Below are positions 8,563 to 44,427 of a stretch of DNA of 64,000 nucleotides, one piece after another. This DNA is from Pseudohongiella sp. O18 (GTDB taxonomy: Bacteria; Pseudomonadota; Gammaproteobacteria; Pseudomonadales; Pseudohongiellaceae). The stretch's first letter is position 1; every line of letters starts with the position of its first letter. The stretch spans positions 744,001 to 808,000 of the forward strand of contig NZ_JAJSAR010000001.1 of assembly GCF_021729085.1 (NCBI RefSeq). The letters run 5' to 3'. A model generated the notes under the pieces. It saw only the letters and a list, made by a program, of their open reading frames with translations, was not told the DNA's origin and did not search any database. The position numbers and the translations under genes were made by a program.

Positions 8563-8571
8563 TATTATCAA

Positions 8572-10651: not shown

Positions 10652-10848
10652 TATTTTTCTCCTGAGTTGGAAGGCCTGCACCGTGACGAACCAGACACAT
10701 GCTAATGCAAAGCATTCAGCAGCGCAAAGCCCGCCGTAACGGGCGATGACGGTTAACTTGACGCACCGGCTCCAGGTGCCCATAGTTGAGTAAAACGCCG
10801 GTTTATTGCTGTATGCATGACCGGGTTAGATAAAAAGGAGTTTCATTG

Positions 10849-11619
10849 ATGAAAAAACTACTGGTAGGACTGTTGGCATTGGCCGTGATTATCGGGGCAG
10901 GGATGATGCTGTTGGTCAGTAATCTGGACAGCATCGTCAAACGAGCGGTGGAAAGCGCAGGTACCGATGCGCTTGGTACGCCGGTACGACTGGAGTCGGT
11001 TGCCATCGACCTCCGCGCTGGCACCGCCAGCCTCTATGGGTTTTCGGTCGCCAATCCGCCTGGCTACAGCGACCAGGATATGATTCGTGTTGATGAGTTA
11101 AGTGTCGCGATCGATATTGCCAGCCTTAACAGTGATGTTATCCGGATCACCAGTATCCGCTCGGTCAACCCCTATGTGCTGTACGAGCTGCAGGGTACCC
11201 GCGGTAATCTCAATGCGATCATGGACCAGTTCCCGCCAGCGGCCGAAACACAGGAGCCCGCCGGCCCCCTGCCAGTGATTGCAATCGACGAAATCAGTGT
11301 TAATGGCATCCAGGGCTCATTGCAATCCGCCCAGGTCAACAGAGCCGTCGACATCAATCTGGGCAATGTCCTGGTGACCGGCGTTCAGGGCACACCGGAT
11401 GAACTGGCCACACAGATTTCGCGACCGTTGATAGCTCAGTTGGCCCGCAATGCGGCGGCGGCGCTGAGCTCCGCGATTGCTTCAGGCGCACTGGAAGGAG
11501 AACTACAGCAGCGTGCTTCAGAAGCGGTCGACGATCTGCGATCGGAAGCCGCCGACCAACTGGAACAGGCGGAAGATGCGGTACGTAGCCTGCGAGACCG
11601 CCTGTTGAACAACAACTGA
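10849..11619 (+). CDS. AsmA-like membrane-anchored protein of unknown function
   Basis: AAGGAG (10835-10840) precedes the ATG at 10849. The 256-residue protein starts with a single hydrophobic helix (about residues 3-24). An AsmA/DUF748-like beta-rich segment follows (GTPVRLESVAIDLRAGTASLYGFSVANP, then VDELSVAID), which is typical of proteins that face the periplasm and relate to outer-membrane lipid handling. The last 80 residues are Ala/Glu-rich and probably a coiled coil (EGELQQRASEAVDDLRSEAADQ). No enzyme motif is visible. It is transcribed alone, away from the hydrolase gene. Confidence 0.7.
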   Translation: MKKLLVGLLALAVIIGAGMMLLVSNLDSIVKRAVESAGTDALGTPVRLESVAIDLRAGTASLYGFSVANPPGYSDQDMIRVDELSVAIDIASLNSDVIRITSIRSVNPYVLYELQGTRGNLNAIMDQFPPAAETQEPAGPLPVIAIDEISVNGIQGSLQSAQVNRAVDINLGNVLVTGVQGTPDELATQISRPLIAQLARNAAAALSSAIASGALEGELQQRASEAVDDLRSEAADQLEQAEDAVRSLRDRLLNNN

Positions 11620-11627
11620 TCTTCCGA

Positions 11628-11650
11628 GGCGGGGAGCCTGGCTCTCCGCC
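11628..11650. other. GC-rich hairpin between convergent genes
   Basis: GGCGGGGAGCC (11628-11638) and GGCTCTCCGCC (11640-11650) form an almost perfect inverted repeat with one G-U pair. It lies 8 bases past the AsmA-like gene and before the hrpB stop. Neither strand has a T-run after it, so it is at best a weak or Rho-assisted terminator. Confidence 0.4.
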
Positions 11651-11676
11651 CTGTTACGCATAGGGGCATGGCGCTA

Positions 11677-14169
11677 CTACTGGCGCGGTTTGGTTTTTGC
11701 AGTCGCGACAGCTGTGGCTGGATCCTCTGGCCAGGGATGTTTGGGGTAACGGCCTCTCAGGTCCTTGCGTACATCAAAATAGCTGGTCTGCCAGAAACCG
11801 GCGAGGTCCCGTGTCACCTGAACCGGGCGCCGCGCCGGAGACAGCAAATGAACCAGTAGCGGTACTCTGCCTGCCACGATGGCGGGCGTTTCGCCCTGAC
11901 CGAACATCTCCTGAAGCTTGACTGCCAGTATCGGCTCGTCCCCACTGTAGTCGATGCTGATGTTCGATCCGCTTGGCACTTTGATGTGAGTGGGTGTTAA
12001 CTTATTTAGAGCATCCTGTAGCGACCAGTCCAGGCTTTCCAGCAGTATTTTTCCCAATGGCAGACGATCTACCTGATCCAGCCGATGCAGGCCGACAACA
12101 TGGGGCGCCAACCATTGCTCAAGGGATTCGAGCAAGAGAGTCTCTTCTACCTCTGGCCAGGGATCGCCCACTGTGTTGTGCAACAGTCTCAACCGGCCCA
12201 GTAACTGGCGGTCTGCATCCGACCAGCGCAGGAATCCTCGTCGGCGCAGCCCCTGCAGCAATGCATTTGCAACAGTGTCAGCAGGCAAAGAGCTGACGCT
12301 GACAGTGCCGGGCCGAGTCGCCAGGGTGAGTTCACGGTGGCCAAGCCTCAGGCGGCGACACTCGTTGGCTACCAGCCTCTCGGCTGACTCATCCCAGAAT
12401 GCCTGCGGCACCCAGTGCATCGATTCAGGATACTGGTGGGCTAACGTCGCTTCAGGTAGCGAAACCGCACTGAATATTCGTGCATTGGATGGTTGTCCAT
12501 CCAGCTCCAGAGCCAGTAGCAAAAGCGACTGGCTGAGAGGGTGCTGCTGCGGCAGACTGGCCTGGCCCCCGGAGAATAATTTGTATCGACCTTCACCCTG
12601 ACTAAGAGCTATCCGGTCTGGATACGCCTGCAGCAGTAACATCGGCGCCACCGATTGCATGGTTGTCATATTGGGCTGAGGCAAGCTGATTCGCAGCCGC
12701 TGCGCCCATTGTCTGGCCGTCTGCTCCAGTCGCCGCTGCCGATGTCCAGCAGATTGACCAGCCTTGATCATCGCTGCCAGGGCGCCCAGCGCATCAGGTT
12801 CCGATGACTCTGGCCGTTCCTCCAGCCAGGACAGCAACCAGCAGGCGATCCCTTTACAGTCGAGACTGTCCTGTTTGTCAGCGAACTCCAGCAGGCGCGC
12901 AAGTCTTGGATGTGTCGGCCAGCGCGCACACTGCCTGCCCAGCGGGGTCAGTTGACTGGCATCCTGATGCTGCAGTAACTCGAGCATCTGCAATTGTTCC
13001 TGGCTGCTTCTGAAAGCGCCGGGAGGAGGGGGTGTCACCCAGTTCAGACTGTCTGGGTCGCCGGCACCCCAGCGGGCCAGTTCAAACACCAGTCCGGCGA
13101 GATCAGACTGCTGGATTTCAGGCTCTCGGTGCGAGGCCAATACCGTCTCCTCTGACCACAGCCGGTAACAGAATCCCGCCGCTTCACGCCCCGCGCGACC
13201 TCGGCGCTGGTCGGCACTGGCACGATTGACCAGTCGGGTAGTCAACCGTGTCAGACCACTGCGGGGCTGATAGATTGGCACTCGCTCGCGGCCGCTATCG
13301 ACGACAATTCTTACACCGGGGACCGTCACACTGGATTCGGCAATCGCAGTAGATAGAATTATTCTTCTGCAGCTTTGGCGGCTGGCGCTTAATACTTCCT
13401 GTTGTTGGGCAAGCGGAAGCTGTCCGTACAAGGGGCTGACTTCGATTCCTTCAGCAAGCCTGCTGGCCAGCGCATTATGCAACTCGCGGATTTCGCGTTG
13501 ACCAGGCAGGAACACCAAAATGTCGCCGTCATGCGCGGCCAGAGCTTCTATGATCACATTAGCCTGGTGCGTGACTGGTGGCGTTTGAAGTGAGGCATTG
13601 CGGTAGAAGGTTGTTACTGGCCATTGCCGTCCAGGGCACTCGATGAGTGGTGTCTCGGGGCCGAGCAGATCCAGCAGCGCTCGGGTGTCCAGCGTTGCCG
13701 ACATGATCAGGATTTTCAGGTCCTCGCGCAGCACCTGTTGCGCTTCAATCATCAAGGTCAGTCCCAGATCCGCATCCAGGCTGCGCTCATGAAACTCATC
13801 AAAAATGACGCCAGTTACGTCGCTGAGGGTGGGGTCGTCCTGCAGCATGCGGATCAAAATGCCCTGGGTGACCACTTCCAGGCGTGTCTGGGAGCTGGTT
13901 TTGCTGTCGCCCCTGACGCGGTAGCCAACAGTGTTGCCGACGGATTCGCCGAGTTGATCTGCCAAAAACGCTGCAGCGAGCCGTGCCGCAACTCGACGCG
14001 GCTCCAGTAACAGCCATCGACCGCTAGGTGGTGTATCTTCCAGCAGAGCCAGTGGCACGCGAGTCGTCTTGCCCGCGCCGGGCTGCGCAACCAGCAGGCA
14101 ATTTGCATTCGCTGCCACGGCTGACCGTAGCGCTGGCAGGACTGTTTCAATCGGCAGCGTGCCGGACAT
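11677..14169 (-). CDS. hrpB: ATP-dependent RNA helicase HrpB
   Basis: This is a DEAH-type helicase of the HrpA/HrpB family, a cytoplasmic protein of poorly defined role in RNA metabolism. Counting from the ATG at 14169, Walker A is AQPGAGKTTR around residues 28-37, with a DEFHERS box as motif II, SATLD as motif III and QRRGRAGR as motif VI. The HrpB-specific C-terminal region ends near ARRPVQVTRDLAGFW and YFDVRKDLRGRYPKHPWPEDP. At 830 residues it is family length. The start codon overlaps the stop of the upstream transporter gene by one base (TGATG), so translation is coupled. Confidence 0.95.
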   Translation of the reverse strand: MSGTLPIETVLPALRSAVAANANCLLVAQPGAGKTTRVPLALLEDTPPSGRWLLLEPRRVAARLAAAFLADQLGESVGNTVGYRVRGDSKTSSQTRLEVVTQGILIRMLQDDPTLSDVTGVIFDEFHERSLDADLGLTLMIEAQQVLREDLKILIMSATLDTRALLDLLGPETPLIECPGRQWPVTTFYRNASLQTPPVTHQANVIIEALAAHDGDILVFLPGQREIRELHNALASRLAEGIEVSPLYGQLPLAQQQEVLSASRQSCRRIILSTAIAESSVTVPGVRIVVDSGRERVPIYQPRSGLTRLTTRLVNRASADQRRGRAGREAAGFCYRLWSEETVLASHREPEIQQSDLAGLVFELARWGAGDPDSLNWVTPPPPGAFRSSQEQLQMLELLQHQDASQLTPLGRQCARWPTHPRLARLLEFADKQDSLDCKGIACWLLSWLEERPESSEPDALGALAAMIKAGQSAGHRQRRLEQTARQWAQRLRISLPQPNMTTMQSVAPMLLLQAYPDRIALSQGEGRYKLFSGGQASLPQQHPLSQSLLLLALELDGQPSNARIFSAVSLPEATLAHQYPESMHWVPQAFWDESAERLVANECRRLRLGHRELTLATRPGTVSVSSLPADTVANALLQGLRRRGFLRWSDADRQLLGRLRLLHNTVGDPWPEVEETLLLESLEQWLAPHVVGLHRLDQVDRLPLGKILLESLDWSLQDALNKLTPTHIKVPSGSNISIDYSGDEPILAVKLQEMFGQGETPAIVAGRVPLLVHLLSPARRPVQVTRDLAGFWQTSYFDVRKDLRGRYPKHPWPEDPATAVATAKTKPRQ

Positions 14170-31583: not shown

Positions 31584-32102
31584 ATGATGACGGATTATCA
31601 GGACGTAGACCCCGCCTACAAAACGCTGCTGCGACTTATCATCCTGATGGACACCGCATTGCTTCTGGTGCTCTGCGCATTGCTGACACGACTGGTACCG
31701 ATTGTGCCGCTCTGGGCGGGTACTACCATAGCCGGGCTGATAATCCTGCTGGCAGGTACTTACGCGACCTTCTGGGTCAACAAGCGCTATCGTCTGACAG
31801 GTTTTCAGGTTCAGCCACAGGCGGTGTATTTTCGCACTGGTGCACTGTGGCGCACGCAGACGGTAGTCACACTGAACCGCATTCAGCATGTAGAAATCAC
31901 TCAGGGTCCGCTCGAGCGGCTATTGAAACTGGCCAGGCTGGTAATCTATACCGCAGGCGGGCGTGGATCTGATCTGACAATCCCGGGGCTCCCGGTGGCG
32001 AGTGCAGAAACCATTCGTGATGGCCTGCTGCAACGAATCGATGAGCAGCCGCGATACGATGAACAGGGAGAGGCGGAGGCGGTCAGTGACGAACACTTAT
32101 GA
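31584..32102 (+). CDS. bPH2-domain membrane protein (YdbS-like)
   Basis: This 172-residue protein has two hydrophobic helices near the N-terminus (about 17-38 and 45-65) followed by one bacterial pleckstrin-homology domain (bPH2/DUF304), with RYRLTGFQVQPQAVYFRTGALWRTQTVVTLNRIQHVEITQGPLER as the core. It matches the smaller member (YdbS) of the YdbS-YdbT pair. These proteins are widespread; in Bacillus they affect secretion and antimicrobial resistance, and their biochemical role is unknown. It overlaps the next gene. Confidence 0.85.
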   Translation: MMTDYQDVDPAYKTLLRLIILMDTALLLVLCALLTRLVPIVPLWAGTTIAGLIILLAGTYATFWVNKRYRLTGFQVQPQAVYFRTGALWRTQTVVTLNRIQHVEITQGPLERLLKLARLVIYTAGGRGSDLTIPGLPVASAETIRDGLLQRIDEQPRYDEQGEAEAVSDEHL

Positions 32103-33582
32103 ACGCGTTTCCCTGTGGGCACTGATCTACTTCATCGGGCGAACTCTGATTTTGTTTCTGCGTCAGGCAGTCAATCTGATTCCGCTGGCTGTGGTGATAG
32201 TGACTGGAGGTGACCAGTTGCGTCTGGTCATCCTGTGGCTGCTCGCTACGGGCTTACCAACACTCATCGTGGTGCACGCCGTTGCGTCCTGGTGGTGCTT
32301 CCGCTATCGGGCAGATGCACACACGCTGCATGTGCGTGAAGGCATTCTCAAGCGGACTCAGCTGACTCTGGACTACGATCGCATTCAACTGGCGGATATC
32401 CGCCAGCCCTGGTATTTCAGACCTTTCGGTCAGTCGATACTCGGAGTCGAAAGCGCGGGATCCGATGGCAAGGAAGTTGAGCTCGCAGGACTTTCATATG
32501 ACCGGGCTGAGTCATTGCGTCAGGCCATGATGCAGCACAAGGAAAATGCTCAGGGTCTGGCGGCAATTGATTCGCCGGCCGATGACTTCCGAGTCGATAT
32601 TGATAGCTCAGTCGCAGGCTTCAGATTGACCTTGCCTTTGTCAGAGCTTGTCCGTTATGGCTTGATGCATAATCCAGTGCTGTTGGCTCTTCCCGTTGTG
32701 GCTTATCCGCTAAGCCAGCTAGATTTTATTGATGACTGGGTGATCCCGCGAGTGGAGGGTCTGGTAACGCTGATCGAGAGGGGAGGTGGGGTCCTGCAGA
32801 CGACTCTCTTGTGGGGGGGCGGCGTGCTTGCCGTGCTGGCGTTGTTGGTGGTGGCTTCCGTTTTGCTGTCAATCGTGCGCTACTACGGGTTCACACTAAC
32901 GGTTACAGGACAGCGCTACCAGACACGGGCGGGCTTGCTCAGTATCGTCACTCGCAGCTTTCAGTATGTGCGGCTGCAGCGGCTGGTCTGGAGTCAGGGC
33001 ATAATAGCTCGCGCCATGGGGCGCCGGTCGCTTCGCATAGATCAGACAGGCAGGCCGGATACCATGCAGCAGGCCAAGAAGTTTTTTGTTCCTATCCTCA
33101 ATGCCGAACGTGAAGCAGGTATTAAACAGCAACTAAGACTGACAGACGCAAACTGGCAATCTGTTCACCCAGCCAGCATGATACTGCCATGGCTAATGAC
33201 GACATCCGCGCTTACTTTACTGGTGGCGCTGTTAACTTCATGGAGTCTGGAGTGGGTGCTGGGATCGCTGTTACTGATCTGCCCTGGTGTAGCTTTGCTT
33301 GTATGGGCGAGCTGGCGCCTACGTGCAGTTTATGTCGATGATAACTGGATCGCGCTGCGACGTGGGATGATCGGCCAGCAGCAAAGCTGGATTCCGGCGT
33401 ACAAAATGCAGACCTTGCGAATTCGACAGGGACCCTGGTTAAGACTGTGGGGAACATCAGCACTGCAAGTGCTTAGCGCAGGTGGTCGCGAGACAATAGC
33501 CTGGTTGCCCGTTGCACAGATTGAGGCCCTGCAGTCGCGGCTTACAAAGTGCACGGCGGTCTACCAGGGCCGCTGGATGTGA
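32086..33582 (+). CDS. Multi-bPH2-domain membrane protein (YdbT-like)
   Basis: A GTG at 32086, inside the end of the previous gene, gives a 498-residue product; a longer frame from 32002 is not needed. There are six or so hydrophobic helices and three bPH2 repeats, recognisable by the recurring GILKRTQLTLDYDRIQLADIRQP, RAGLLSIVTRSFQYVRLQRLVWSQG and RRGMIGQQQSWIPAYKMQTLRIRQGP segments. This is the YdbT-like partner of the preceding YdbS-like protein, and the two probably form a membrane complex. It ends 12 bases from the stop of the convergent metallopeptidase gene. Confidence 0.85.
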   Translation: MTNTYERVSLWALIYFIGRTLILFLRQAVNLIPLAVVIVTGGDQLRLVILWLLATGLPTLIVVHAVASWWCFRYRADAHTLHVREGILKRTQLTLDYDRIQLADIRQPWYFRPFGQSILGVESAGSDGKEVELAGLSYDRAESLRQAMMQHKENAQGLAAIDSPADDFRVDIDSSVAGFRLTLPLSELVRYGLMHNPVLLALPVVAYPLSQLDFIDDWVIPRVEGLVTLIERGGGVLQTTLLWGGGVLAVLALLVVASVLLSIVRYYGFTLTVTGQRYQTRAGLLSIVTRSFQYVRLQRLVWSQGIIARAMGRRSLRIDQTGRPDTMQQAKKFFVPILNAEREAGIKQQLRLTDANWQSVHPASMILPWLMTTSALTLLVALLTSWSLEWVLGSLLLICPGVALLVWASWRLRAVYVDDNWIALRRGMIGQQQSWIPAYKMQTLRIRQGPWLRLWGTSALQVLSAGGRETIAWLPVAQIEALQSRLTKCTAVYQGRWM

Positions 33583-33594
33583 ACATTTATTTGA

Positions 33595-34716
33595 TCAGGA
33601 GATCACGCTGTGTACCAGATACATCTTACGCAGCGAATCCACGGTCAACACAAACGGATAGCTGTCGGGCTGACCCATACTGCGGGCCAGCACGTTGAGG
33701 ACGCTGCTCAGTCGCACCCACTGATTAACCTTTTGCATAAAGCCGTCAGAGAGTTCGGAGTCAGCCATGTGAAATGGAAGCTCTGCAAGATCCTGCTGTG
33801 TGAAGGGATCGGTCTGAATGCTCAGTGCATCCGCAGCAATACCAAATTGCTCAGCCGCGCTTAGCGTGTCAGTCATGTGCAGATAATGCGCCCAGGTTTC
33901 TGCCCAGTCTTCCCAGGGGTGCGAGGCCGCATAGCTGCTGATGTAATGGCTTTGCCAGTCAGCCGGGGGACCAACATTGTAGTGATTCTGGAGCGAGGCC
34001 GTGTAATCCTGACGCTCATCACCAAACAGGCTTCTGTAAACGGGTAACCAATTGGTGTCGCGAATCAGGAGATCCCAGTAGTAATGCCCGGACTCGTGGC
34101 GGAAATGTCCCAGCAGTGTGCGGTAAGGCTCCTGCATCTGTTGACGAATCTGCTCACGAAAGGCAGGGTCGGCCTCGGCGATATCGATGGTTATGACGCC
34201 AGCTTTGTGACCAGTGACAGGAGCATCCTCTCCTGGCTGCCAGCGCAACAACTCAAAGCCCAGGCCCTTTTGCGGATCCATTTGCCGTGTTTTTACCGGC
34301 AGCCCCAACATCAGCAGCTGCGCAATCAGCCGCCGTTTGGCAAGCTCACACAGACGCCAGTAGTCGGGATTTCCAGACTGAGAAAGATCAGGAATGGTGA
34401 TGTTGGTCGCGCAGGCAAGACACAGGTCGGCAGGCGAATCCTGGTCCAGCGAACCTGTGACAAGCCAGTTGCATTGTGCGGCAGAGTCAACATTGGCGCA
34501 GCGTCGATAGCTGGCAATAACGGCTTTGTCGCTGTCGCAGTCTGTCTGCAATACCCAGCGACCTGCCTGCTCGGCAGGCACCAGGCTTTGCAGTTGACCT
34601 TGCTCTGGGTGAAAGCCAAGCGCCGAGCCACAACGCAGGCAAACGCTGTTGTCAAAGAATACGACCTGGCCACATTGGCACAACTGCCGGTGACTGTATG
34701 AACTGAACAGGATCAT
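33595..34716 (-). CDS. Zinc-ribbon putative metallopeptidase, last gene of the alpha-E operon
   Basis: The 373-residue protein starts with a zinc ribbon (C13, C15, C26, C29 in QLCQCGQVVFFDNSVCLRC). A gluzincin-like domain follows with HExxH at 207-211 (FRHESGHYYW) and a candidate third ligand E273 in WAETWAHY. It belongs to the putative zinc-binding metallopeptidase family that is repeatedly encoded beside alpha-E/ATP-grasp/transglutaminase genes. It starts directly after the alpha-E stop on the same strand, so it is the third gene of that operon. A role as the peptidase that trims or recycles the peptide made by the cluster is inference. Confidence 0.85.
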   Translation of the reverse strand: MILFSSYSHRQLCQCGQVVFFDNSVCLRCGSALGFHPEQGQLQSLVPAEQAGRWVLQTDCDSDKAVIASYRRCANVDSAAQCNWLVTGSLDQDSPADLCLACATNITIPDLSQSGNPDYWRLCELAKRRLIAQLLMLGLPVKTRQMDPQKGLGFELLRWQPGEDAPVTGHKAGVITIDIAEADPAFREQIRQQMQEPYRTLLGHFRHESGHYYWDLLIRDTNWLPVYRSLFGDERQDYTASLQNHYNVGPPADWQSHYISSYAASHPWEDWAETWAHYLHMTDTLSAAEQFGIAADALSIQTDPFTQQDLAELPFHMADSELSDGFMQKVNQWVRLSSVLNVLARSMGQPDSYPFVLTVDSLRKMYLVHSVIS

Positions 34717-35679
34717 CTATGAGGCCTGAGTCTGCACATTATCCTGTACGCGCGCGAAATAGGTCTTTGCCAGCGCGTCGTGAAGCTCACTGAAGTCCAG
34801 TTGAATATCGTCGACGAAGGCATGCAGGCGCTCCGGCTCACTGGCCAGCAGCGGGATATCCGCCCTGGAAAGATGCTCGCGGCAGGTCTCCACTTCGTTT
34901 AGTACAATCTCATGACGTGGTAGCGTCAATAGTGCATTCGCGAATCGTTCCAGACAGGTCCCGACAGCGCGCGGAAAGCTCCGATTCTGCAACAGGAAGC
35001 TCAATACATCCGGGCCCCGGATACGCAGTCGAACATGCTGGCGATACATTTGATAACCGCTGAGTGATTTGAGCACACTCATCCATTGAATATTTTCAAA
35101 AGGGGTCAGTTCTCCCGGGCTGCGCGGCAGCAGATTACCTGACCTCACATCGATAATTCGGGTGATCATGTCTGCACGCTCGAGCTGACGTCCCAGCATT
35201 AGAAACGTGCGCGCCTGCGTGTAGCTGAGCGTGCCCTCAATCAATCCATTGACAGTCTGGCAGCTGCGAATCACGCGTCTCAAAAATGCGTCGCGCTTGC
35301 GTGGTGTGATACCCGATTCAACCTGGTCGCGCACCGCAATAAACAGCTGGTTGACCTCTTCCCATATCTCTCTGGGGATAACGTCACGTGTGGTGCGAAG
35401 ATTCTCACGTGCCGCTGCCAGTGAGCGGATGATGGAACCGTCATAGCGCTTATCCCCACATATGAAAGTCAGCACACTGACTTCATCACGATTGGGATAG
35501 AGCTCGTCAAACAGTTCGGCGTTGCCCGTGATCGCAATAATCTCTGACCAGCCGAGTTGTGTGGCGCGGGGCAGGTCCAGCAACAGGTTACTATTGACAC
35601 TGAGCAGGCGTGCGGTGTCTTCGGTTCGTTCGATGTAACGTGCCAGCCAGTATATATTTTCAGCAACGCGAGAGAGCAT
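34717..35679 (-). CDS. Alpha-E domain protein (DUF403)
   Basis: The 320-residue all-helical protein opens with the family signature MLSRVAENIYWLARYIERTEDTARLL. It also contains the ARTFLMLGRQLERADMITRIIDVR and SQVNGL-type helices of the alpha-E superfamily, in which conserved Glu and Arg residues line a presumed active site. It lies two bases after the ATP-grasp gene and abuts the metallopeptidase gene. In the published prediction of Aravind and colleagues, alpha-E proteins accompany permuted ATP-grasp ligases and transglutaminases in a peptide-synthesis system. No enzymatic activity has been shown that I know of. Confidence 0.92.
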   Translation of the reverse strand: MLSRVAENIYWLARYIERTEDTARLLSVNSNLLLDLPRATQLGWSEIIAITGNAELFDELYPNRDEVSVLTFICGDKRYDGSIIRSLAAARENLRTTRDVIPREIWEEVNQLFIAVRDQVESGITPRKRDAFLRRVIRSCQTVNGLIEGTLSYTQARTFLMLGRQLERADMITRIIDVRSGNLLPRSPGELTPFENIQWMSVLKSLSGYQMYRQHVRLRIRGPDVLSFLLQNRSFPRAVGTCLERFANALLTLPRHEIVLNEVETCREHLSRADIPLLASEPERLHAFVDDIQLDFSELHDALAKTYFARVQDNVQTQAS

Positions 35680-35681
35680 GG

Positions 35682-37136
35682 TCAGCGGCCCTCCACATCG
35701 ACAATCCAGGTGTCCTTACTGCCGCCACCCTGGGAAGAGTTGACGACCAGCGAGCCTTTGACCAGTGCCACTCGCGTCAAACCGCCGGTGGTCACGTAAG
35801 TGGATTGCCCCGATAGAATGAATGGACGCAGATCAACATGGCGCGGCTCCATCACGTTACCGATCAGAGTTGGAGACGTTGATAGTGCGAGAGTCGGCTG
35901 CGCCATGTAATTGCGAGGGTCCGCCTTGATCAGCTCGGCGAACTTCTTGCGTTCTTTTTTATTCACGTGCGGGCCGATCATCATGCCATAGCCACCCGAC
36001 TCATTGGCGGGTTTAACGACCAGCTTGTCCAGATTGTCGAGTACGTATTTGCGGTCGTCCTCAAACATGCACAGATAGCTGGGTACGTTCGGGATCAGTG
36101 GTTCCTGGTCGAGATAATATTTGATGATCTTCGGCACAAAGGCATACACCACCTTGTCGTCTGCTACGCCAGCACCCGGCGCATTGGCCAGCGCCACATT
36201 ACCTTTACGCCATGCGCGCATCAGGCCTCGGGCACCCAGCGCCGATTCGGGGTTAAACACCTCGGGGTCAAGGAACATGTCGTCAACGCGCCGATAAATG
36301 ACATCGACTCTCTCAAGGCCGTCCACCATGCGCATGTACACGCAGTCATCATCACCGACCACGAGGTCGGATCCTTCAACCAGCTGCACACCCATTTGCT
36401 GTGCCAGGTAGGCATGCTCATAGTAGGCGCTGTTATAGATGCCTGGTGTCAGGATGACTATTGAGGGGTCATCACCAGGGCGCGGGCTCATAGATGCCAG
36501 CATTTCGTATAGCTGGGATGTGTAATCGTCGACTGGCTGAATGAAACCGGTAGCAAAAAGCTCTGGCATCACCCGCTTGGTGACATTACGGTTTTCCAGC
36601 ATGTAAGAGACGCCCGAGGGTACACGCAAGTTGTCCTCGAGCACGTAAAGTGTACCGTCTTTGTCACGCACAAGGTCTGAGCCACAGATATGTGCCCAGA
36701 TGTTGTGTGGGGTATTGATGCCGACGCACTGGGGGCGGAAGTTTACTGATTGTTTCAGCAATTCGGCGGGGAAGACACCGTCTTTGATGATTTTCTGGTC
36801 GTGGTACAGGTCATTGATGAACATGTTGAGCGCCTGTACACGCTGTTTCAGGCCGGCCTCGGTTTTTTGCCATTCCTGCAGCGGTATGATGCGCGGCACA
36901 ATGTCAAAAGGCCATGCCCGGTCTATCATGCTGCCTTCGGTATACACGGTGAACGTGATGCCCATCAGTTGAATGGCCAGTTCAGCAGCAGCCTTGTGCT
37001 CGCCCAGTTCCTTCGCGTCAAGCCGTGCCAGATATTCGCATAGCATATGTGCTTCGGGACGGGGCTTGCCGGGTGCGGCAATCAGCTCGTCATAGAATCC
37101 ATCAAAACTATAGGTATCCCAGTCTACATTGCTCAT
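35682..37136 (-). CDS. Circularly permuted type 2 ATP-grasp protein (stand-alone, apparently intact)
   Basis: This is a predicted peptide ligase of 484 residues. The segment normally at the C-terminus of ATP-grasp enzymes comes first: DLVRDKDGTLYVLEDNLRVPSG at about 154-175, with the Glu-Asp-Asn metal site at 167-169. The nucleotide-binding part comes last: LVVKPANESGGYGM at 372-385 with the ATP-contacting lysine and glycine loop, then HVDLRPFIL. All key residues are present, so it should bind ATP and ligate a carboxylate to an amine. It is the first gene of the leftward operon (then alpha-E, metallopeptidase) and is divergent from the transglutaminase-DUF2126 gene. Confidence 0.92.
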   Translation of the reverse strand: MSNVDWDTYSFDGFYDELIAAPGKPRPEAHMLCEYLARLDAKELGEHKAAAELAIQLMGITFTVYTEGSMIDRAWPFDIVPRIIPLQEWQKTEAGLKQRVQALNMFINDLYHDQKIIKDGVFPAELLKQSVNFRPQCVGINTPHNIWAHICGSDLVRDKDGTLYVLEDNLRVPSGVSYMLENRNVTKRVMPELFATGFIQPVDDYTSQLYEMLASMSPRPGDDPSIVILTPGIYNSAYYEHAYLAQQMGVQLVEGSDLVVGDDDCVYMRMVDGLERVDVIYRRVDDMFLDPEVFNPESALGARGLMRAWRKGNVALANAPGAGVADDKVVYAFVPKIIKYYLDQEPLIPNVPSYLCMFEDDRKYVLDNLDKLVVKPANESGGYGMMIGPHVNKKERKKFAELIKADPRNYMAQPTLALSTSPTLIGNVMEPRHVDLRPFILSGQSTYVTTGGLTRVALVKGSLVVNSSQGGGSKDTWIVDVEGR

Positions 37137-37302
37137 TCAGATCTTTTTGTCCAAAACGTGGATAGCGGTTTTCCTGCAATAATTGTGCAATCACTGTACC
37201 AGTTCATCACGTTGTATCATGCGGCTGGTTGATCGGCAACTGCGGCATGGTGCGGTTTAATCAAAACAGCTCACATTGCATTAACGGTTGAGTGTTTGTC
37301 AT

Positions 37303-37330
37303 TTGCAATTGGCATCGCCCTTGCTATGCT
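37303..37330 (+). promoter_or_regulatory. Probable promoter of the rightward transglutaminase operon
   Basis: TTGCAA (37303-37308) and TATGCT (37325-37330) are 16 bases apart, 34 bases before the ATG at 37364. The 227-base gap 37137-37363 must also hold the promoter of the leftward ATP-grasp operon; I could not place that one. Confidence 0.5.
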
Positions 37331-37363
37331 CGATAGACCGTTCTATGAGCCGGACTTCCTGTC

Positions 37364-40300
37364 ATGACGATTCGCGTAGCCCTGAAACACTCCACCCGCT
37401 ATAACTTTGACAGACCCGTTCAGGTGCATCCGCATCATATTCGCCTGAAACCAGCACCCCACTGCCGCACACCCATCGAGGCCTACAGCCTCAAGATCAC
37501 CGGTGGTCAGTACTTTATCAACTGGCAGCAGGACCCATTCGGCAACCATGTGGCGCGGCTCGTGTTCCCCGACAAGATGACCCAGCTTCACGTTGACGTG
37601 GAAGTCATTGCGCCGATGACGGTCATCAACCCCTTCGATTTTTTTGTGGAGGAGTACGCCGAACATTTTCCATTCAGCTATCCAGAAGCGCTTAAAAAGG
37701 ATCTGGCGCCGTACCTGGAAACAGGTCGGGCAGGATCAGACGGGCAGGACGGACCCTTGCTGGAGGCCTGGCTGGAGCGGGCCAGAACAGAATTGCTGGG
37801 CACAAAAGACCTCTTGATCGCCAGTGCACTGGTGGCACTGAATCAGCAGCTCAGCAATGATATTGAATACCTTATCCGTATGGAGCCGGGCGTTCAGACG
37901 CCTGAGGAGACCTTGCAGAAGGCCAAAGGCTCATGTCGCGATTCGGCCTGGTTACTGGTCCATATTCTGCGCCGACTGGGGCTCGCAGCGCGGTTTGTGT
38001 CCGGATATCTGATACAACTGAAGGCGGACGTCAAAGCCCTGGATGGGCCATCGGGAACAGACGTTGATTTCACCGACCTGCATGCCTGGACTGAGGTATA
38101 CATACCCGGTGCTGGCTGGATCGGTCTGGATCCGACCTCCGGACTGTTTGCTGGTGAGGGACACCTGCCACTTGCAGCCACACCTGAGCCATCTACCGCA
38201 GCTGCAATCACCGGCTCAACAGGAAAGTGTGAGGTTGAGTTTGACTTCGCCATGAGCGTGACCCGCATTCACGAGGACCCCCGGGTTACCAAGCCATACA
38301 CAGACGCGCAGTGGGAAAAAATTGATGCGCTGGGCGAGCAGGTGGATACGCAACTGGAAACACTTGATGTGCGATTGACCATGGGAGGTGAGCCCACTTT
38401 TGTGTCAATCGATGATATGGATGCACCAGAATGGACCATCGCCGCGCAGGGACCCACAAAGCGCCGGTTCGCCGAGAATCTGCTGCACCGCCTGCGACCA
38501 CACTACGCATCCAACTCCCTGCTGCATTATCAGCAGGGCAAGTGGTATCCCGGCGAACCGCTGCCGCGTTGGGCGCTTGCCTGTTACTGGCGAAAAGACG
38601 GCAAGGCAATCTGGAAAGATGATCGCTGGCTGGCCCGCATGGATCAGGACTATGGAGTTGGCGAGTCTCAATTACGTCAGTTTGCCAGTGTTCTGGTCAA
38701 GCGCCTTGCGCTCGACGAAAAGTACCTGATCCCGTGTTATGAGGATGCGTATCACTATCTATGGCTGGAGCGTCAACAGCCGGTTGATATTGATCTGCGC
38801 AGCGAAAAGCTGGGCAAGGATGAAGATCGCCTGCGACTCGCACGTTTGCTCGAGCGTGGTATGGACGCGTTGGTGGGTCTGGCACTTCCACTGACGGCAA
38901 CTTCGGTGCAACAGAGTGAGTCAAAACAGCCGCGGCTGTGGTTGAGCGGCCGCTGGCATGTGCGTCGCGATCATCTGTATCTGATCCCTGGCGATTCGCC
39001 AATGGGTTTGCGATTGCCATTGAGTGCGTTGCCAGTCAAAAAGCGTGAAGAAGAGCAGGCGCCTTCCTGGTTTGGGGAGCTGCCACCGCTGGAGGACGAA
39101 AACGGCGAGGTCGCCCAGTGGTATAGCGAGTCGCCGCAAATACAGCCGGGGGTCACGCAAACTGGCCTGCATATTCATGGGCGGAGCCAGGAATGGCAGG
39201 AACAGATCCCGAATGAGAAAGCGGATGAAACCATCGGCACCGCATTGTGTCTGGAACCCAGAGACGGCAAATTATTCGTATTCATGCCGCCGCTGCCGCT
39301 GCTGGAAGACTATCTGGCTTTGCTGGCAGCTATTGAGAACACAGCGGCCGAGCTGAAGTTGCCAGTCTGCATAGAGGGATATCCACCACCTTCAGACCCC
39401 CGCCTGCAAAAATTCATGATCACGCCGGATCCCGGTGTCATCGAAGTCAACGTCGCGCCATCGAAGAGCTGGCGCGAACTGGTCACCAATACCCGTGTGC
39501 TGTATGAAGAGGCACGGCTGAGCAGGCTGGGAACGGAAAAGTTCATGCTTGATGGCCGGCACACCGGCACTGGCGGGGGTAACCATGTCACGCTGGGCGG
39601 GGCAACGCCGGCTGACTCCCCCTTCCTGCGACGGCCGGACCTGCTGGCCAGCATGCTGACATTCTGGCAGCACCATCCCAGTCTTTCCTACCTGTTCTCA
39701 GGAATGTTCCTTGGGCCGACCAGTCAGGCGCCGCGCGTCGATGAGGCGCGTCATGAAGCCCTCTATGAGCTGGAGATCGCGATGTCGCAAATGCCAGTTG
39801 GCGATGTTCCAGCCCCCTGGATTGTGGATCGCTTGTTGCGGAATTTGCTGACCGATATTACTGGCAACACCCATCGTGCCGAGTTCTGTATCGACAAGTT
39901 GTACTCACCGGACTCCGCTACCGGGCGCCTGGGCTTGCTGGAATTGCGCGGTTTTGAAATGCCACCGCATGCAGAGATGAGCCTGATGCAGCAATTGTTG
40001 ATTCGGGCGCTGGTAGCCAGGTTTTACGCCTCACCCTATCGCAAGCCACTGGTGCGTTGGGGAACCGCGCTGCACGATAAATGGATGATGCCGTACTACA
40101 TCTGGCAGGATCTGTGTGACGTGCTGGCAGATCTGCGCGATCATGGCTTCGAATTCCAGAGCGAATGGTTTGCGCCATTCCTGGAGTTTCGTTTTCCGCT
40201 GGCCGGCGAGGCGCAGTACGACAGCGTGCAAATTCAGCTGCGACAGGCAATAGAGCCCTGGCATGTGCTGGGAGAGGAAGCCAGCGGCGGCGGCACAGCG

Positions 40301-40753
40301 CGTTATGTCGATTCATCTGTCGAGAGGCTGGAAGTCAAATTGACAGGCTACAACCCGGCACGCCATGTCCTTACCTGCAATGGCTACAAGGTCCCGCTGC
40401 AGCCTACCGAGCAATCCGCGCAGGCGGTGGCGGCGGTACGTTTCAGAGCCTGGCAGCCACCATCGGCACTGCACCCGATGATCAAGGTGCACGCACCGCT
40501 GGTCTTTGATCTGGTGGATACCTGGAATGGGCGTTCTATAGGTGGCTGTACCTACCATGTGTCGCATCCGGCTGGCAGAAACTACGAGACATTCCCGGTC
40601 AACGCAAACGAGGCTGAGGCCAGGCGTATGGCGCGGTTCTGGGCCCATGGTCATACTCAGGGACAGATTGCTGAAATCAAGCGTGTGTCGGTGCGGGAGT
40701 ACCCGCATACCCTGGACCTGAGGCGCAGCGCAGTCACTGATTCAGATCTGTAG
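37364..40753 (+). CDS. Transglutaminase-like - DUF2126 giant protein
   Basis: This protein has 1129 residues. The N-terminal 270 form a bacterial transglutaminase-like domain with a beta-rich start and the triad C191 (AKGSCRDSAW), H240 (DLHAWTEVY) and D256 (GWIGLDPTSG). From about 320 to the end is DUF2126, which follows DVRLTMGGEPTFVSIDDMD and contains an unusual run with DGRHTGTGGGNHVTLGGATPADSPFLRRPDLLASMLTFWQ-type motifs and RAEFCIDKLYSP. DUF2126 has been related to amidoligase (glutamine synthetase-like) folds, so both peptide-bond making and breaking may be in one chain. It is the first gene of the rightward operon. Confidence 0.92.
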   Translation: MTIRVALKHSTRYNFDRPVQVHPHHIRLKPAPHCRTPIEAYSLKITGGQYFINWQQDPFGNHVARLVFPDKMTQLHVDVEVIAPMTVINPFDFFVEEYAEHFPFSYPEALKKDLAPYLETGRAGSDGQDGPLLEAWLERARTELLGTKDLLIASALVALNQQLSNDIEYLIRMEPGVQTPEETLQKAKGSCRDSAWLLVHILRRLGLAARFVSGYLIQLKADVKALDGPSGTDVDFTDLHAWTEVYIPGAGWIGLDPTSGLFAGEGHLPLAATPEPSTAAAITGSTGKCEVEFDFAMSVTRIHEDPRVTKPYTDAQWEKIDALGEQVDTQLETLDVRLTMGGEPTFVSIDDMDAPEWTIAAQGPTKRRFAENLLHRLRPHYASNSLLHYQQGKWYPGEPLPRWALACYWRKDGKAIWKDDRWLARMDQDYGVGESQLRQFASVLVKRLALDEKYLIPCYEDAYHYLWLERQQPVDIDLRSEKLGKDEDRLRLARLLERGMDALVGLALPLTATSVQQSESKQPRLWLSGRWHVRRDHLYLIPGDSPMGLRLPLSALPVKKREEEQAPSWFGELPPLEDENGEVAQWYSESPQIQPGVTQTGLHIHGRSQEWQEQIPNEKADETIGTALCLEPRDGKLFVFMPPLPLLEDYLALLAAIENTAAELKLPVCIEGYPPPSDPRLQKFMITPDPGVIEVNVAPSKSWRELVTNTRVLYEEARLSRLGTEKFMLDGRHTGTGGGNHVTLGGATPADSPFLRRPDLLASMLTFWQHHPSLSYLFSGMFLGPTSQAPRVDEARHEALYELEIAMSQMPVGDVPAPWIVDRLLRNLLTDITGNTHRAEFCIDKLYSPDSATGRLGLLELRGFEMPPHAEMSLMQQLLIRALVARFYASPYRKPLVRWGTALHDKWMMPYYIWQDLCDVLADLRDHGFEFQSEWFAPFLEFRFPLAGEAQYDSVQIQLRQAIEPWHVLGEEASGGGTARYVDSSVERLEVKLTGYNPARHVLTCNGYKVPLQPTEQSAQAVAAVRFRAWQPPSALHPMIKVHAPLVFDLVDTWNGRSIGGCTYHVSHPAGRNYETFPVNANEAEARRMARFWAHGHTQGQIAEIKRVSVREYPHTLDLRRSAVTDSDL

Positions 40754-40882
40754 TGCTCTGGCAACTGGCGGTCGCTCAAGAACTTTGCGAACCAGGCAGA
40801 CTGGACACTAAGCATGTGTACTTGTCAGCCGATACACCGCATGACAAGATCTACCGGTTTTTAATCAGGAACAGGCCAACCC

Positions 40883-43507
40883 ATGCAGTCCGCAAGCCCC
40901 GCTGACCCCGTCAAATCCCTGCTGGGCGACTACCCTGGTCATGGTGCTCATGACGAGTTGTACGAGCGTGGGCAGGTCAGGGCGCACTGGCAGCAGCTGC
41001 TGACTGAATTTGCAGCGCTGGGCGCAGAGCTTCTCACACAGCGCAGCGACGAAGCACAAAACCTGCTGCACGAGAATGGTGTCACCTTTAATCCTTACGA
41101 AGACGACCCCGGCCAGCAGCGCTCCTGGCGACTCGACTGCATGCCCTGGGTCATCAGTACGGCTGAATGGGACGCGCTGGAAAAAGGGCTGCAGCAACGC
41201 AGCAGGCTTCTGGCTCACCTGCTGGATGATCTGTACGGTGAACGCCATGTGATTGCTGAGGGTCTGTTGCCGCCGGAGCTGGTTTATACCCATCCCGGAT
41301 TTCTGTTTTCTGCCGCTGACTCGCCCCCCATGGTTGAACGACCGCTGCTGATTTCCCACGGCTGCGATGTTGTTCGCGATCATGAAGGGCAATGGCTGGT
41401 GCTTGGCGACCTGACACAATCACCCTCCGGTGTGGGTTACGCACTGGAAAACCGGATCACACTGTCCCGCGCACTGCCGGGCCTTTACCGTGATGCACCA
41501 CTGAAACGACTGGCCGGGTTTCTGCAGGCACAGCACCGATGCCTGGCGGCACTGGCGCCGGCGCACCGCGAGCAGGCCAATATCGTCCTGCTGACGCCGG
41601 GTCCAGGAAGTCCCGGTTATTTCGAACACGCCTGGCTGGCAAACTACATGAACGTGCCTCTGGTAGAGGGCGACGATCTGGTCGTGCGCGAAGGCCAGGT
41701 ATGCGTGCGAACACTGGGTGGGCTGAACCAGGTTGATGTCATTCTGCGCCAGATCAATGACCCCTGGTGTGACCCGCTGGAGCTGCGACCGGATTCGCTG
41801 CTGGGTGTCCCAGGCCTGCTGCAGGCTGCGCGTGATGGTGAAGTCAGGATCGTCAACGCGCTGGGCGCCGGTGTGCTGGAGCATCCGGCCCTGGCGGCAT
41901 TTCTGCCGGTACTCTGTGAACGTCTGCTGGGTGAAGCGCTGATGCTGCCATGTCGTGAAACACTGTGGTGTGGAGACAATGATGCGCTGCAGCGCATAAG
42001 ACAGGCACCGGAAGAATGGATCCTGCGAGACATTACACAACCTGGCAAAGCCTTCAGGGTTGACCAGATGGGGCTTGAAGCTGCACGTCATCTTAGGATG
42101 GACCTGAATGCGCGCCCCCATCTGTTCTCTGCCCAGCGTCCCATAAAAACGGCCGTGACACCGGGCTTCAATCCCCGCACCGGTCAACTGGAGCGTCAGC
42201 AGGCCTCACTGCGACTGTTTTCACTGCTGGAACCGAATGACATTCCCAAGCCTGTTGCCGAGCAGCATTTCCGCATCATGCCTGGCGGTCTGGCCTGGGT
42301 GGGAGAACCCGGCTCAGCGATGATGAAAAGTGCAGTGGTCAAAGACATCTGGGTGCTGGCGCCGGTACCACAGCCGCACATCAGTATGCTCAGGCATGCC
42401 GGCGGTCCCATTCTGGTGACACGTGATGGCAAGGATCTGCCATGCCGGGTCGCAGAGAGTCTGTTCTGGCTGGGCCGCTACGGGGAACGCCTGGATGTGC
42501 GCGCCCGTCTGCTGCGTGAATCCCTGACCAAACTCCTGCAGGAAGACCCTCACAGCGAGGGCGCGACGCTGCTGCCTGACCTGATGACCGCATTGGATGT
42601 GGCACCTGATGCTGATGAACTTGAAGAAATGCTGAAGGAGCTTCCTGAGCATCCAAGATTTTCCAAGGCGCATACGCTGGCGCGGGACCGATTATTGAAT
42701 TTGCTGGCAGACCAGGGGCCACAGGGTATGCCAGGAATTTTTGCCAGTTTTGTGCGCAACAGCCGTTCCGTGCGTGACCATCTTGGCGACGACCTCTGGC
42801 GCTCGGTCAGCAATATTCGCCAGCGCTGCAATGCCATGTCTCGCGCGCGCGGCGTAGTTGCTGGCCAGCGACTGCTGGAAGCCGTGGTATTGGATCTTGC
42901 TGCATTTTTTGGCCTTTGCAACGAAACCATGCCGCACCACTATGGCTGGCGCTTTCTGGACATTGGTCGCTTTATCGAACGCATTCTGGGCACGCTGGAA
43001 TTACTGAAGCTGGCGCTGCTCACCGCCAGGCAGCCTGGCATCCCGCTATGGGAGGTGGTGCTGGCCACGACTGACAATTTCACGGTTTACCGACGTCGTT
43101 TCCGTTCACAACTGCATCCATCGGCAATCCTCGATCTGCTGCTGTTTGATGAGACCAACCCGCGTTCGGTGGGTTATATGTTGCGCCGCATTCAGCGGCA
43201 GGTGGCGCGTCTGCCGGGCCAATCGCAGTCGTCCTACCGTAACCTGGAGAACCGCCTGATCATCGAGGCGACCAGTACTCTGCATTTGATGGATATCGAG
43301 ACCCTGGCTGATCTCGAAAACTCCGACTCGGCCCGAGAGGCCCTGACGGATCTGCTGGATCGGATTATTGCGCCGATGTCCGCGCTGTCGGATGCCATCT
43401 CGCACAGTCACTTCAGTCATGTTGAGGCGCCGCGCCAGCTGGTCACCATGCAGGTCAGCCCGGGTCTGGACGATGGCAAGACGCCAGCCAGGAGTGAGCG
43501 CCGATGA
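40883..43507 (+). CDS. Fused circularly permuted ATP-grasp / alpha-E protein with altered ATP motifs
   Basis: This 874-residue protein joins both partners that are separate in the leftward operon. Residues about 20-510 are the permuted ATP-grasp part and residues about 525-850 the alpha-E part (CRVAESLFWLGRYGERLDVRARLL). In the ATP-grasp part, the EDN metal triplet of the paralogue is replaced by GDL (LVLGDLTQSPSG, 173-183). The VVKPANESGGYG nucleotide loop is replaced by ILRDITQPGK (380-389), so the ATP-contacting lysine and glycine loop are not seen. It may be a non-catalytic or strongly divergent ligase. The last bases overlap the next transglutaminase start (ATGA). Confidence 0.9.
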   Translation: MQSASPADPVKSLLGDYPGHGAHDELYERGQVRAHWQQLLTEFAALGAELLTQRSDEAQNLLHENGVTFNPYEDDPGQQRSWRLDCMPWVISTAEWDALEKGLQQRSRLLAHLLDDLYGERHVIAEGLLPPELVYTHPGFLFSAADSPPMVERPLLISHGCDVVRDHEGQWLVLGDLTQSPSGVGYALENRITLSRALPGLYRDAPLKRLAGFLQAQHRCLAALAPAHREQANIVLLTPGPGSPGYFEHAWLANYMNVPLVEGDDLVVREGQVCVRTLGGLNQVDVILRQINDPWCDPLELRPDSLLGVPGLLQAARDGEVRIVNALGAGVLEHPALAAFLPVLCERLLGEALMLPCRETLWCGDNDALQRIRQAPEEWILRDITQPGKAFRVDQMGLEAARHLRMDLNARPHLFSAQRPIKTAVTPGFNPRTGQLERQQASLRLFSLLEPNDIPKPVAEQHFRIMPGGLAWVGEPGSAMMKSAVVKDIWVLAPVPQPHISMLRHAGGPILVTRDGKDLPCRVAESLFWLGRYGERLDVRARLLRESLTKLLQEDPHSEGATLLPDLMTALDVAPDADELEEMLKELPEHPRFSKAHTLARDRLLNLLADQGPQGMPGIFASFVRNSRSVRDHLGDDLWRSVSNIRQRCNAMSRARGVVAGQRLLEAVVLDLAAFFGLCNETMPHHYGWRFLDIGRFIERILGTLELLKLALLTARQPGIPLWEVVLATTDNFTVYRRRFRSQLHPSAILDLLLFDETNPRSVGYMLRRIQRQVARLPGQSQSSYRNLENRLIIEATSTLHLMDIETLADLENSDSAREALTDLLDRIIAPMSALSDAISHSHFSHVEAPRQLVTMQVSPGLDDGKTPARSERR

Positions 43508-44427
43508 GATATCAGATTCGACACCTGACACGCTACGATTACAGTGGCCAGGCAACGCTCAGCCACAATGAAGCGCGGGTTCTGCCGCGCAATCTGCCCT
43601 GGCAGAAATGTCTGAACAGCGAGTGGCAGATCAGCCCGAAACCGGTCCGGCTGCGCGAGCGCAGCGATTTTTTTGGCAATCGGGTTGCCTATTTCTCGAC
43701 CGAGAGCGTGCACGACAGCCTCGAAGTGGTGGTCGTAAGTGAGGTTGATGTCAGCGCGCGTCCTGCCCAGGACATATTCAGCACCATTACCTGGCCTGAT
43801 GCGGTATCCGATGTCGCGCAAAGTCACCGTACCGGGAACAGAGAATGTATCGACGCCAGGCTGTACGTGCTGGAGTCGCCATTTGTCCGGCAGCAGCAGA
43901 CACTTCAGCAGTACGCCGAAGAGTGTTTTGAAGACACTTCAGACCTGATTCAGGGCCTGCATATCCTGAATAAACGCATATTTGATGAATTCACTTATGA
44001 TCCGGGGGTCACCACGACGGCAACCCCGGTGCATGAGGTTATGGCTGCCAAGCGCGGCGTCTGTCAGGATTTTGCGCATCTGATGATCGGATGCCTGCGC
44101 TCTCTTGGGCTGCCAGCGCGCTACGTGAGCGGTTACATGGAGACCCTGCCACCTCCCGGACAGGAGAAACTGCTGGGTGCTGATGCCACCCATGCCTGGA
44201 TTGCGGCCTTCATTCCGGGTTGGGGCTGGCTGGAGCTGGATCCAACCAACGGCTGCCTGCCGGACGAGCGTTATATCGTGCTGGGCTGGGGCCGTGATTA
44301 TGCTGACGTGACACCGCTCAAAGGTGTCATGACCGGCGGCGGGGAGCATGAGCTGTCAGTAGCTGTGGATGTCATTCCCAAAGAAGTCGAGCAGACCACA
44401 GCCGTGGCCCTGGATTTTGGCAAATAG
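43504..44427 (+). CDS. Transglutaminase-like cysteine protein
   Basis: The 307-residue protein begins with the beta-rich MRYQIRHLTRYDYSGQATLSHNE domain found in bacterial transglutaminase-like families. The catalytic core has C187 (AKRGVCQDFAH), H230 (ATHAWIAAF) and D246 (GWLELDPTNG). It completes the rightward operon and overlaps the fused ATP-grasp/alpha-E gene by four bases. Such enzymes may act as amidases or peptidases on the product of the adjacent ligases, or cross-link it to a protein. The substrate is unknown. Confidence 0.92.
   Translation: MRYQIRHLTRYDYSGQATLSHNEARVLPRNLPWQKCLNSEWQISPKPVRLRERSDFFGNRVAYFSTESVHDSLEVVVVSEVDVSARPAQDIFSTITWPDAVSDVAQSHRTGNRECIDARLYVLESPFVRQQQTLQQYAEECFEDTSDLIQGLHILNKRIFDEFTYDPGVTTTATPVHEVMAAKRGVCQDFAHLMIGCLRSLGLPARYVSGYMETLPPPGQEKLLGADATHAWIAAFIPGWGWLELDPTNGCLPDERYIVLGWGRDYADVTPLKGVMTGGGEHELSVAVDVIPKEVEQTTAVALDFGK

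Follow-up and report, generated by a model that had tools for sequence, protein, structure and literature searches.

A fused predicted pseudo-ligase and sigma54-type promoters in a divergent ATP-grasp/alpha-E/transglutaminase locus of Pseudohongiella

In a 64,000-nucleotide stretch of the Pseudohongiella sp. O18 genome (contig NZ_JAJSAR010000001.1, positions 744,001 to 808,000; hereafter the window), we examined a block of six genes that belongs to a known, predicted kind of system built around a circularly permuted ATP-grasp protein, an alpha-E protein, and transglutaminase-like enzymes. The ATP-grasp/alpha-E pair is present twice, as two stand-alone proteins in a leftward operon and as one fused protein in a rightward operon that begins with a transglutaminase-like domain joined to DUF2126 (TG-DUF2126). 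Judged by its residues, the ATP-grasp part of the fused protein is very probably a pseudo-ligase, and sigma54 promoters are predicted with equally high confidence at both operons. Our preferred reading, which we hold tentatively and would give a probability of roughly 0.4, is that the locus encodes a sigma54-transcribed, probably nitrogen-limitation-induced system for the conjugation and release of amides or peptides.

The E-x-N pair, a lysine, and a glycine-rich loop are the catalytic residues by which members of the ATP-grasp superfamily bind metal and ATP. The stand-alone protein of the window (PF14403) has all six corresponding positions (ENKGGG) within its motifs LEDNLRVPSG and KPANESGGYG, whereas the fused protein reads LGDLTQSPSG and RDITQPGK at the equivalent places and carries G, L, R, G, a gap, and K at the six positions, so that it lacks the catalytic set and has G and L as the equivalents of E167 and N169. 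The same division runs through the relatives: 61 of the 62 proteins first classed as stand-alone keep all six positions, E167 and N169 are each found in 61/62 stand-alone and 0/62 fused proteins, K375 is kept in 61/62 against 13/62, and G384 in 61/62 against 0/62. The sole stand-alone exception (L081) is a fragment at a contig edge that groups inside the smallest clade holding all fused proteins, where it is the one member classed as stand-alone. E and N are likewise lost from three plasmid copies, in Enterobacter, Caballeronia, and the acidobacterium Granulicella, the last being the one Acidobacteriota copy by which the residue check extends beyond Pseudomonadota.

Loss of the E-x-N pair together with the glycine loop throughout a clade is the usual sign that ATP-grasp chemistry, as known from superfamily members such as GshB, has been lost. 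For this reason we regard it as very unlikely that the fused protein is instead a changed enzyme that uses the permuted scaffold with another cofactor or for metal-free chemistry, even though many residues of the active form (D109, Y111, R157, G175, R183, D257, D290, and N318) are still fixed in 62/62 fused proteins, as are the fused-specific residues E300 and W362 (62/62); residues common to both forms can be structural. These fixed positions, and the ER motif that the fused clade keeps in its alpha-E part, therefore appear to be conserved for a role other than ordinary ATP-grasp chemistry. The initial annotation of this DNA had counted two ligase modules in the block; two ATP-grasp ligases are not supported, since the residues for ATP-grasp catalysis are missing from the fused copy, and the second plausible ligase is DUF2126. 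In the literature covered, no paper was found that calls the fused copy inactive, and the pseudo-ligase and its dependence on the stand-alone ATP-grasp (see below) may be new, with the proviso that Iyer 2009 could already remark on an inactive copy.

The distribution of these genes suggests how the parts depend on each other. Loci were mapped in 28 stretches of relatives and in the best 80 of 113 loci retrieved with the TG-DUF2126 of the window as query, and the sample therefore leans to close relatives; some named loci duplicate other mapped loci, and identical proteins were removed before the residue, promoter, and locus counts. This gave 94 distinct TG-DUF2126 loci, of which 66 were counted and 28, having less than 5 kb on at least one side, were excluded. 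The initial annotation had suggested a survey of whether the two operons travel together, and in this sample of relatives they are not rarely paired: the stand-alone ATP-grasp and the fused gene are both found in 37/66 loci, the stand-alone gene only in 13, the fused gene only in 11, and neither in 5. The ATP-grasp gene stands head to head with TG-DUF2126 in 30/66 loci, 26 of which have the fused gene, and the metallopeptidase is present in 31/66. Both operons occur together in loci of Halopseudomonas, Nitrincola, Zobellella, Saccharospirillum, Halotalea, Acidihalobacter, and Magnetococcales, among others.

At the level of genomes, dependence is one-sided. Across 299 genomes of the phylum Pseudomonadota we found, here and in all genome counts below among the matches listed, a strong permuted ATP-grasp match in 171, the fused protein in 96, DUF2126 in 92, Peptidase_Mx in 60, and Anbu, a proteasome-like protein, in 114. 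The 96 fused genomes were selected manually from the listed matches (E value up to 7e-76, open frame of at least 790 aa, one copy per genome), and weak fused copies may be missed; five of the counted rows have one stop read through (G266, G219, G073, G107, and G242), and one further read-through match was left out, that of G071, whose single ATP-grasp match scores with the stand-alone class. Each of the 96 fused genomes has two or more ATP-grasp matches, one of them strong and of the stand-alone score class, and a strong ATP-grasp match is present in 92/92 DUF2126 genomes and in 59/60 Peptidase_Mx genomes (exception, G139). DUF2126 and the fused protein coincide in 85/299 genomes, with DUF2126 alone in 7, the fused protein alone in 11, and neither in 196. 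In these genomes the top ATP-grasp match has an E value of about 1e-157 or better, like the stand-alone protein and compared with 2e-117 for the fused copy of the window; it is on the number and score of the ATP-grasp matches, rather than on residues read, that this genome-level dependence rests. The stand-alone ATP-grasp is therefore the core of the system, to which DUF2126, the pseudo-ligase, and the peptidase have been added.

We also considered whether two independent enzyme systems simply adjoin each other, one of ATP-grasp, alpha-E, and peptidase and the other of DUF2126 and the pseudo-ATP-grasp, each with its own substrate. In line with this, 75/171 genomes have the strong ATP-grasp match but not the fused protein, the stand-alone gene lies near DUF2126 without the fused gene in 13/66 loci, and the fused gene has no stand-alone gene nearby in 11/66. 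Such independence is nevertheless rather unlikely, given the one-sided dependence of the fused and DUF2126 genomes (96/96 and 92/92) and the sigma54-type sites that stand at both genes in 33/57 loci.

These promoter sites (Table 1) are the best-conserved blocks in an alignment of 14 gaps from the Pseudohongiella group, among which that of L042 extends into coding sequence and N. Between them lies a partly conserved middle block, TTGTATCA...GGCAAC, which is a possible activator site. The scoring weights and the consensus patterns for sigma54 (GG-N10-GC) and NtrC were taken from general knowledge. Upstream of TG-DUF2126, a sigma54 score of at least 19 of 23 was reached in 54/91 loci, against 7.9% of 10,852 control windows, and 52/91 loci, from 12/34 lineage groups (our own grouping of loci by record names), have such a site within -140 to -45. 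Upstream of the stand-alone ATP-grasp, 43/60 regions score at least 18.5, against 3.8% of 23,140 control windows; at a cutoff of at least 19 the count is 35/59, with 33 within -140 to -45, in 12/22 lineage groups. The 33/57 loci given above, with sites at both genes, were counted at scores of at least 18.5 among loci having both genes. Over the whole window the plain sigma54 pattern occurs about as often as chance predicts (3 sites, with 2.7 expected); the case for sigma54 rests on position and conservation. The genome itself encodes rpoN and an ntrC that lies above the cutoff, and no sigma70-type match was found in the 227-bp gap, the one match being outside it.

Genes of nitrogen starvation often have this type of promoter. 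Exact NtrC-type dyads (GCAC-N7-GTGC) occur in 9/52 upstream regions at spacing 7 and in 0 to 1 at nine other spacings. The Burkholderia cenocepacia genes I35_5080-5083 are reported to be targeted by both NtrC and sigma54 (PMC5491218), Pseudomonas putida PP_2685 and PP_2688 are reported to be higher on nitrate than on ammonium, by 4.4 and 4.0 log2 units (PMC8050072), and abundances in marine metagenomes tie DUF403/404/407 and Bact_transglu_N to urea genes (PMC3597751). Nitrogen limitation is fairly likely to be the signal in Pseudohongiella as well.

The stand-alone ATP-grasp, both transglutaminase-like domains, and the zinc metallopeptidase retain their catalytic residues. The stand-alone ATP-grasp is a relative of PDB entry 3n6x (E value, 1e-155), deposited as a putative glutathionylspermidine synthase, and a Yersinia permuted ATP-grasp of this family liberates phosphate from ATP (PMC6376114). 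In alpha-E, R14, Y15, E17, and R18 are invariant across 48 aligned stand-alone and fused copies, E17-R18 being the ER motif; the AlphaFold2 model of the stand-alone protein is all-helical (predicted local distance difference test [pLDDT] score, 89.6) and had no match at an E value of 0.001 or below in a fold search of the PDB. The Cys-His-Asp triad of TG-DUF2126 is found in 94/97 (Cys191), 95/97 (His240), and 95/97 (Asp256) rows, the remaining rows being gaps, and that of the second transglutaminase-like protein (C187, H230, and D246) in 58/58 relatives. The metallopeptidase has H207, E208, H211, and seven Cys residues conserved in 38/38 relatives, and a sequence search for a solved relative gave none at an E value of 1 or below. 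DUF2126 is likely to be an active amidoligase, predicted to be glutamine synthetase/GCS2-like: its GGEPTF, E-V-N, GTGGG..H, HRxE, and RxxEMPP residues are invariant in 42 rows, and its top ten Foldseek matches are YbdK-type GCS2 proteins and glutamine synthetases (probability, 0.98 to 1.00), with a best E value of just 4e-3. These matches agree with an earlier sequence-based assignment to carboxylate-amine ligases (PMC2588565).

Our results lead us to propose the following scheme, of which we infer the enzyme chemistry, the substrate, the partner contacts, and the product alike. The stand-alone ATP-grasp and its alpha-E partner would activate a carboxylate as an acyl phosphate and then join it to an amine, and DUF2126 would form a second, gamma-glutamyl-type amide bond, by analogy with GshA (GCS) and GshB (ATP-grasp) in glutathione synthesis. 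The pseudo-ATP-grasp/alpha-E protein might serve as a noncatalytic partner that holds or presents an intermediate or docks to the active pair, while the Cys-His-Asp transglutaminase-like domains could transfer or hydrolyze the amide and the zinc metallopeptidase could trim the product. That product would most likely be a small amide or peptide conjugate for nitrogen salvage or holding when ammonium is short. A more specific version, in which the clade-wide pseudo-ligase is an obligate noncatalytic subunit or carrier that links the ATP-grasp/alpha-E pair to DUF2126 under shared sigma54 promoters during nitrogen starvation, we offer as speculation and consider unlikely in its entirety.

Several observations weigh against the proposal of a sigma54-transcribed, nitrogen-responsive conjugation system. 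No TG-DUF2126 sigma54 site scoring at least 19 is present at -140 to -45 in 22/34 lineage groups, many of which are single loci, and the site is found in 0/5 Acetobacter, 0/2 Halomonadaceae, and 0/2 Magnetococcales loci. Upstream of TG-DUF2126 the exact dyads are confined to three lineages (Nitrincola, Zobellella, and Acidihalobacter), with one more at a Thiobacillus-group ATP-grasp gene, and the gap in the window has no NtrC dyad, its best candidate, upstream of TG-DUF2126, having 2 mismatches. The PII gene of the same genome (L184, C1:578689-579006), which served as a positive control, has a perfect NtrC dyad beside a sigma54 site, and NtrC may therefore not be the activator here. In P. putida, PMC7801951 reports a 14- to 20-fold rise of PP_2686-2688 under nitrogen limitation in an rpoN mutant, compared with 11 to 15 in the wild type, an argument against a strict need for sigma54 in that strain; the urt genes likewise rise in the rpoN mutant, and PP_2685 is nearly unchanged in the wild type under nitrogen limitation (1.12). 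On the enzyme side, DUF2126 had no Foldseek match at an E value of 0.001 or below, the template modeling (TM) scores of its top ten matches are at most 0.39, and its model is moderate (pLDDT, 74). Coexpression of the Yersinia Anbu operon is reported to have given no specific complexes (PMC6376114). With conserved sigma54 sites but no dyad in the window, control by sigma54 is therefore well supported by sequence, and control by nitrogen through NtrC is inferred.

The main rival to a small conjugate is protein tagging, in which the ligases would attach a short peptide or an amino acid to proteins, after the manner of Pup ligase or RimK-type glutamylation, and the transglutaminase-like domains and the peptidase would remove it, for protein turnover in nitrogen starvation. 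Iyer 2009 is cited as having predicted tagging for the set of ATP-grasp, alpha-E, transglutaminase, and Anbu (PMC5666114 and PMC6376114), and TG-DUF2126, as Rv2566, has been assigned to the superfamily of carboxylate-amine ligases to which Pup ligase belongs (PMC2588565). Moreover, among recurrent additional neighbors in the examined loci, Anbu is the most widespread. The genome that carries the window has no Anbu match at an E value of 1e-12, however, its strong PF00227 match being a 179-aa open reading frame (ORF) of HslV size followed by an ORF that we read by eye as HslU; such neighborhoods are reported to be without Pup-like small ORFs (PMC2588565); and conservation in the 227-bp gap is mostly at the promoter blocks. 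Tagging as a whole therefore seems to us somewhat unlikely. As to the product itself, a peptide tag on proteins, one of the outcomes considered in the initial annotation, is possible, and we would lay even odds on a small conjugate rather than a protein tag.

Anbu and the fused module were also considered as strict alternatives, a notion that we rejected because 53 genomes have both: the 171 ATP-grasp genomes divide into these 53, 59 with Anbu only, 43 with the fused protein only, and 16 with neither (odds ratio, 0.33). The fused gene is also present in 3/24 Anbu-bearing loci, a count made without prior removal of identical proteins. Yersinia Anbu is described as having no peptidase activity (PMC6376114). 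As separate observations, two genomes of one genus (G147 and G300) have an Anbu-like protein without a permuted ATP-grasp match, and a 19-kb stretch (L053) has two Anbu-like ORFs (2228-2986 and 11774-12547) together with ATP-grasp, alpha-E, and TG-DUF2126.

The system has several known relatives. Three features of the kind described in Iyer 2009, as defined from citing papers and general knowledge, are found in the window, namely, a permuted ATP-grasp with catalytic residues, alpha-E with the ER motif, and a Cys-His-Asp transglutaminase. The Anbu operons of P. putida (PP_2685-2688) and Yersinia bercovieri have the same core of permuted type 2 ATP-grasp, alpha-E, and transglutaminase-like protein, and expression under nitrogen limitation is reported there (PMC5666114, PMC6376114, PMC8050072, and PMC7801951); unlike them, the window, in a genome without Anbu, adds TG-DUF2126, the pseudo-ATP-grasp/alpha-E fusion, and the zinc metallopeptidase. 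The B. cenocepacia genes I35_5080-5083 (DUF404/407, DUF403, transglutaminase, and large transglutaminase) have ATP-grasp, alpha-E, and transglutaminases in common with the window, and the part of PMC5491218 covered makes no mention of a fused copy. Mycobacterium tuberculosis Rv2566 joins a transglutaminase-like domain to a carboxylate-amine ligase domain, as TG-DUF2126 does (PMC2588565). The rlo system of Pseudomonas aeruginosa (PMC12239564) likewise combines a ligase, a protease, and an inactive protein from a family of amide-bond enzymes (the ATP-grasp RloC, the retropepsin RloA, and the inactive transglutaminase RloB), but it has another ATP-grasp (24% identical to RimK), a retropepsin-like protease, and envelope-related phenotypes, and its dead partner is the transglutaminase, whereas in the window system it is the ATP-grasp.

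Plasmids of Caballeronia sp. M1242 (L188) and Enterobacter roggenkampii (L186) carry the same five core genes, including the pseudo-ligase fusion, with the metallopeptidase present on the Caballeronia plasmid and none annotated in the Enterobacter stretch. Their gene order is mostly one-way, compared with the head-to-head pair of the window, and the best sigma54 scores in the Enterobacter stretch are low (15 and 17). The five-gene version in E. roggenkampii lies at 3216-12407 of the L186 stretch, from plasmid p1_120063 (IncFII, predicted nonmobilizable), with an arsC gene and IS26 nearby, and this plasmid copy hints at transfer between hosts.

The layout of the window (Table 1) bears out the gene identities and the shared 227-base gap on which the initial annotation was built: six intact ORFs span 33595-44427 in two divergent operons, as confirmed by ORF coordinates and Pfam; none of the six proteins matched NCBIfam at an E value of 0.001. 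Two divergent versions of the ATP-grasp/alpha-E pair do stand side by side, their ATP-grasp parts 30% and their alpha-E parts 25% identical, and the only two alpha-E matches in the 3.47-Mb genome are both in this block, whose ligase-plus-hydrolase logic is likewise supported. The leftward genes are separated by gaps of 2 bp and 0 bp; in the rightward operon, 129 bp lie between TG-DUF2126 and the fused gene, which then overlaps the next gene by 4 bp (43504-43507).

Table 1. Genes and control elements of the divergent locus, in window positions
Feature	Positions	Strand	Evidence or remark
Zinc-ribbon + Peptidase_Mx metallopeptidase, 373 aa	33595..34716	-	PF15887, E value 3.5e-99; PF10005
Stand-alone alpha-E protein, 320 aa	34717..35679	-	PF04168, E value 7.3e-82
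Stand-alone circularly permuted ATP-grasp (CP_ATPgrasp_2, PF14403), 484 aa	35682..37136	-	E value 9e-165; predicted active ligase
Divergent control region, 227 bp	37137..37363	.	Alignment of 14 Pseudohongiella-group gaps
Sigma54-type -24/-12 site, leftward operon, TGGTACAGTGATTGCA	37186..37201	-	Starts 65 bp upstream of ATP-grasp start
Sigma54-type -24/-12 site, rightward operon, TGGCATCGCCCTTGCT	37310..37325	+	Starts 54 bp upstream of TG-DUF2126 start
Transglutaminase-like domain fused to DUF2126 (TG-DUF2126), 1129 aa	37364..40753	+	Pfam
Fused ATP-grasp (predicted pseudo-ligase) + alpha-E, 874 aa	40883..43507	+	CP_ATPgrasp_2, 2e-117; Alpha-E, 3e-62
Second transglutaminase-like protein, 307 aa	43504..44427	+	Pfam

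The bPH_2 membrane-protein pair that the initial annotation noted beside the block is real (31584-33582, by Pfam) but is not a conserved neighbor: it lies near the block in 3/14 Pseudohongiella-group stretches, 2 of the 14 (L048 and L060) being too short to reveal it. Outside the window, only two of these stretches showed it, L045, which is the closest relative, and L039, where it is fragmented; the pair is therefore probably unrelated to the system. We rejected it as a part of the system, together with the short-chain dehydrogenase/reductase (SDR) and YicC genes, a pair found in the window and L045 only among the 14 stretches. Further recurrent neighbors, such as an ABC ATPase and a GGDEF protein, resemble common families.

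The permuted ATP-grasp core is present in 171/299 genomes of the phylum, and yet its product is lacking in the literature covered. If the more specific version of our proposal, with the pseudo-ligase as an obligate subunit or carrier, is true, these bacteria would have a peptide-conjugation pathway apart from pupylation and glutathione synthesis, with a product so far undescribed. The apparently dead second ATP-grasp, its dependence on the stand-alone protein, and the sigma54-type promoters lead to specific tests, in that they name the proteins to mix, the residue to use as a control, and nitrogen limitation as the condition under which the system may be at work.

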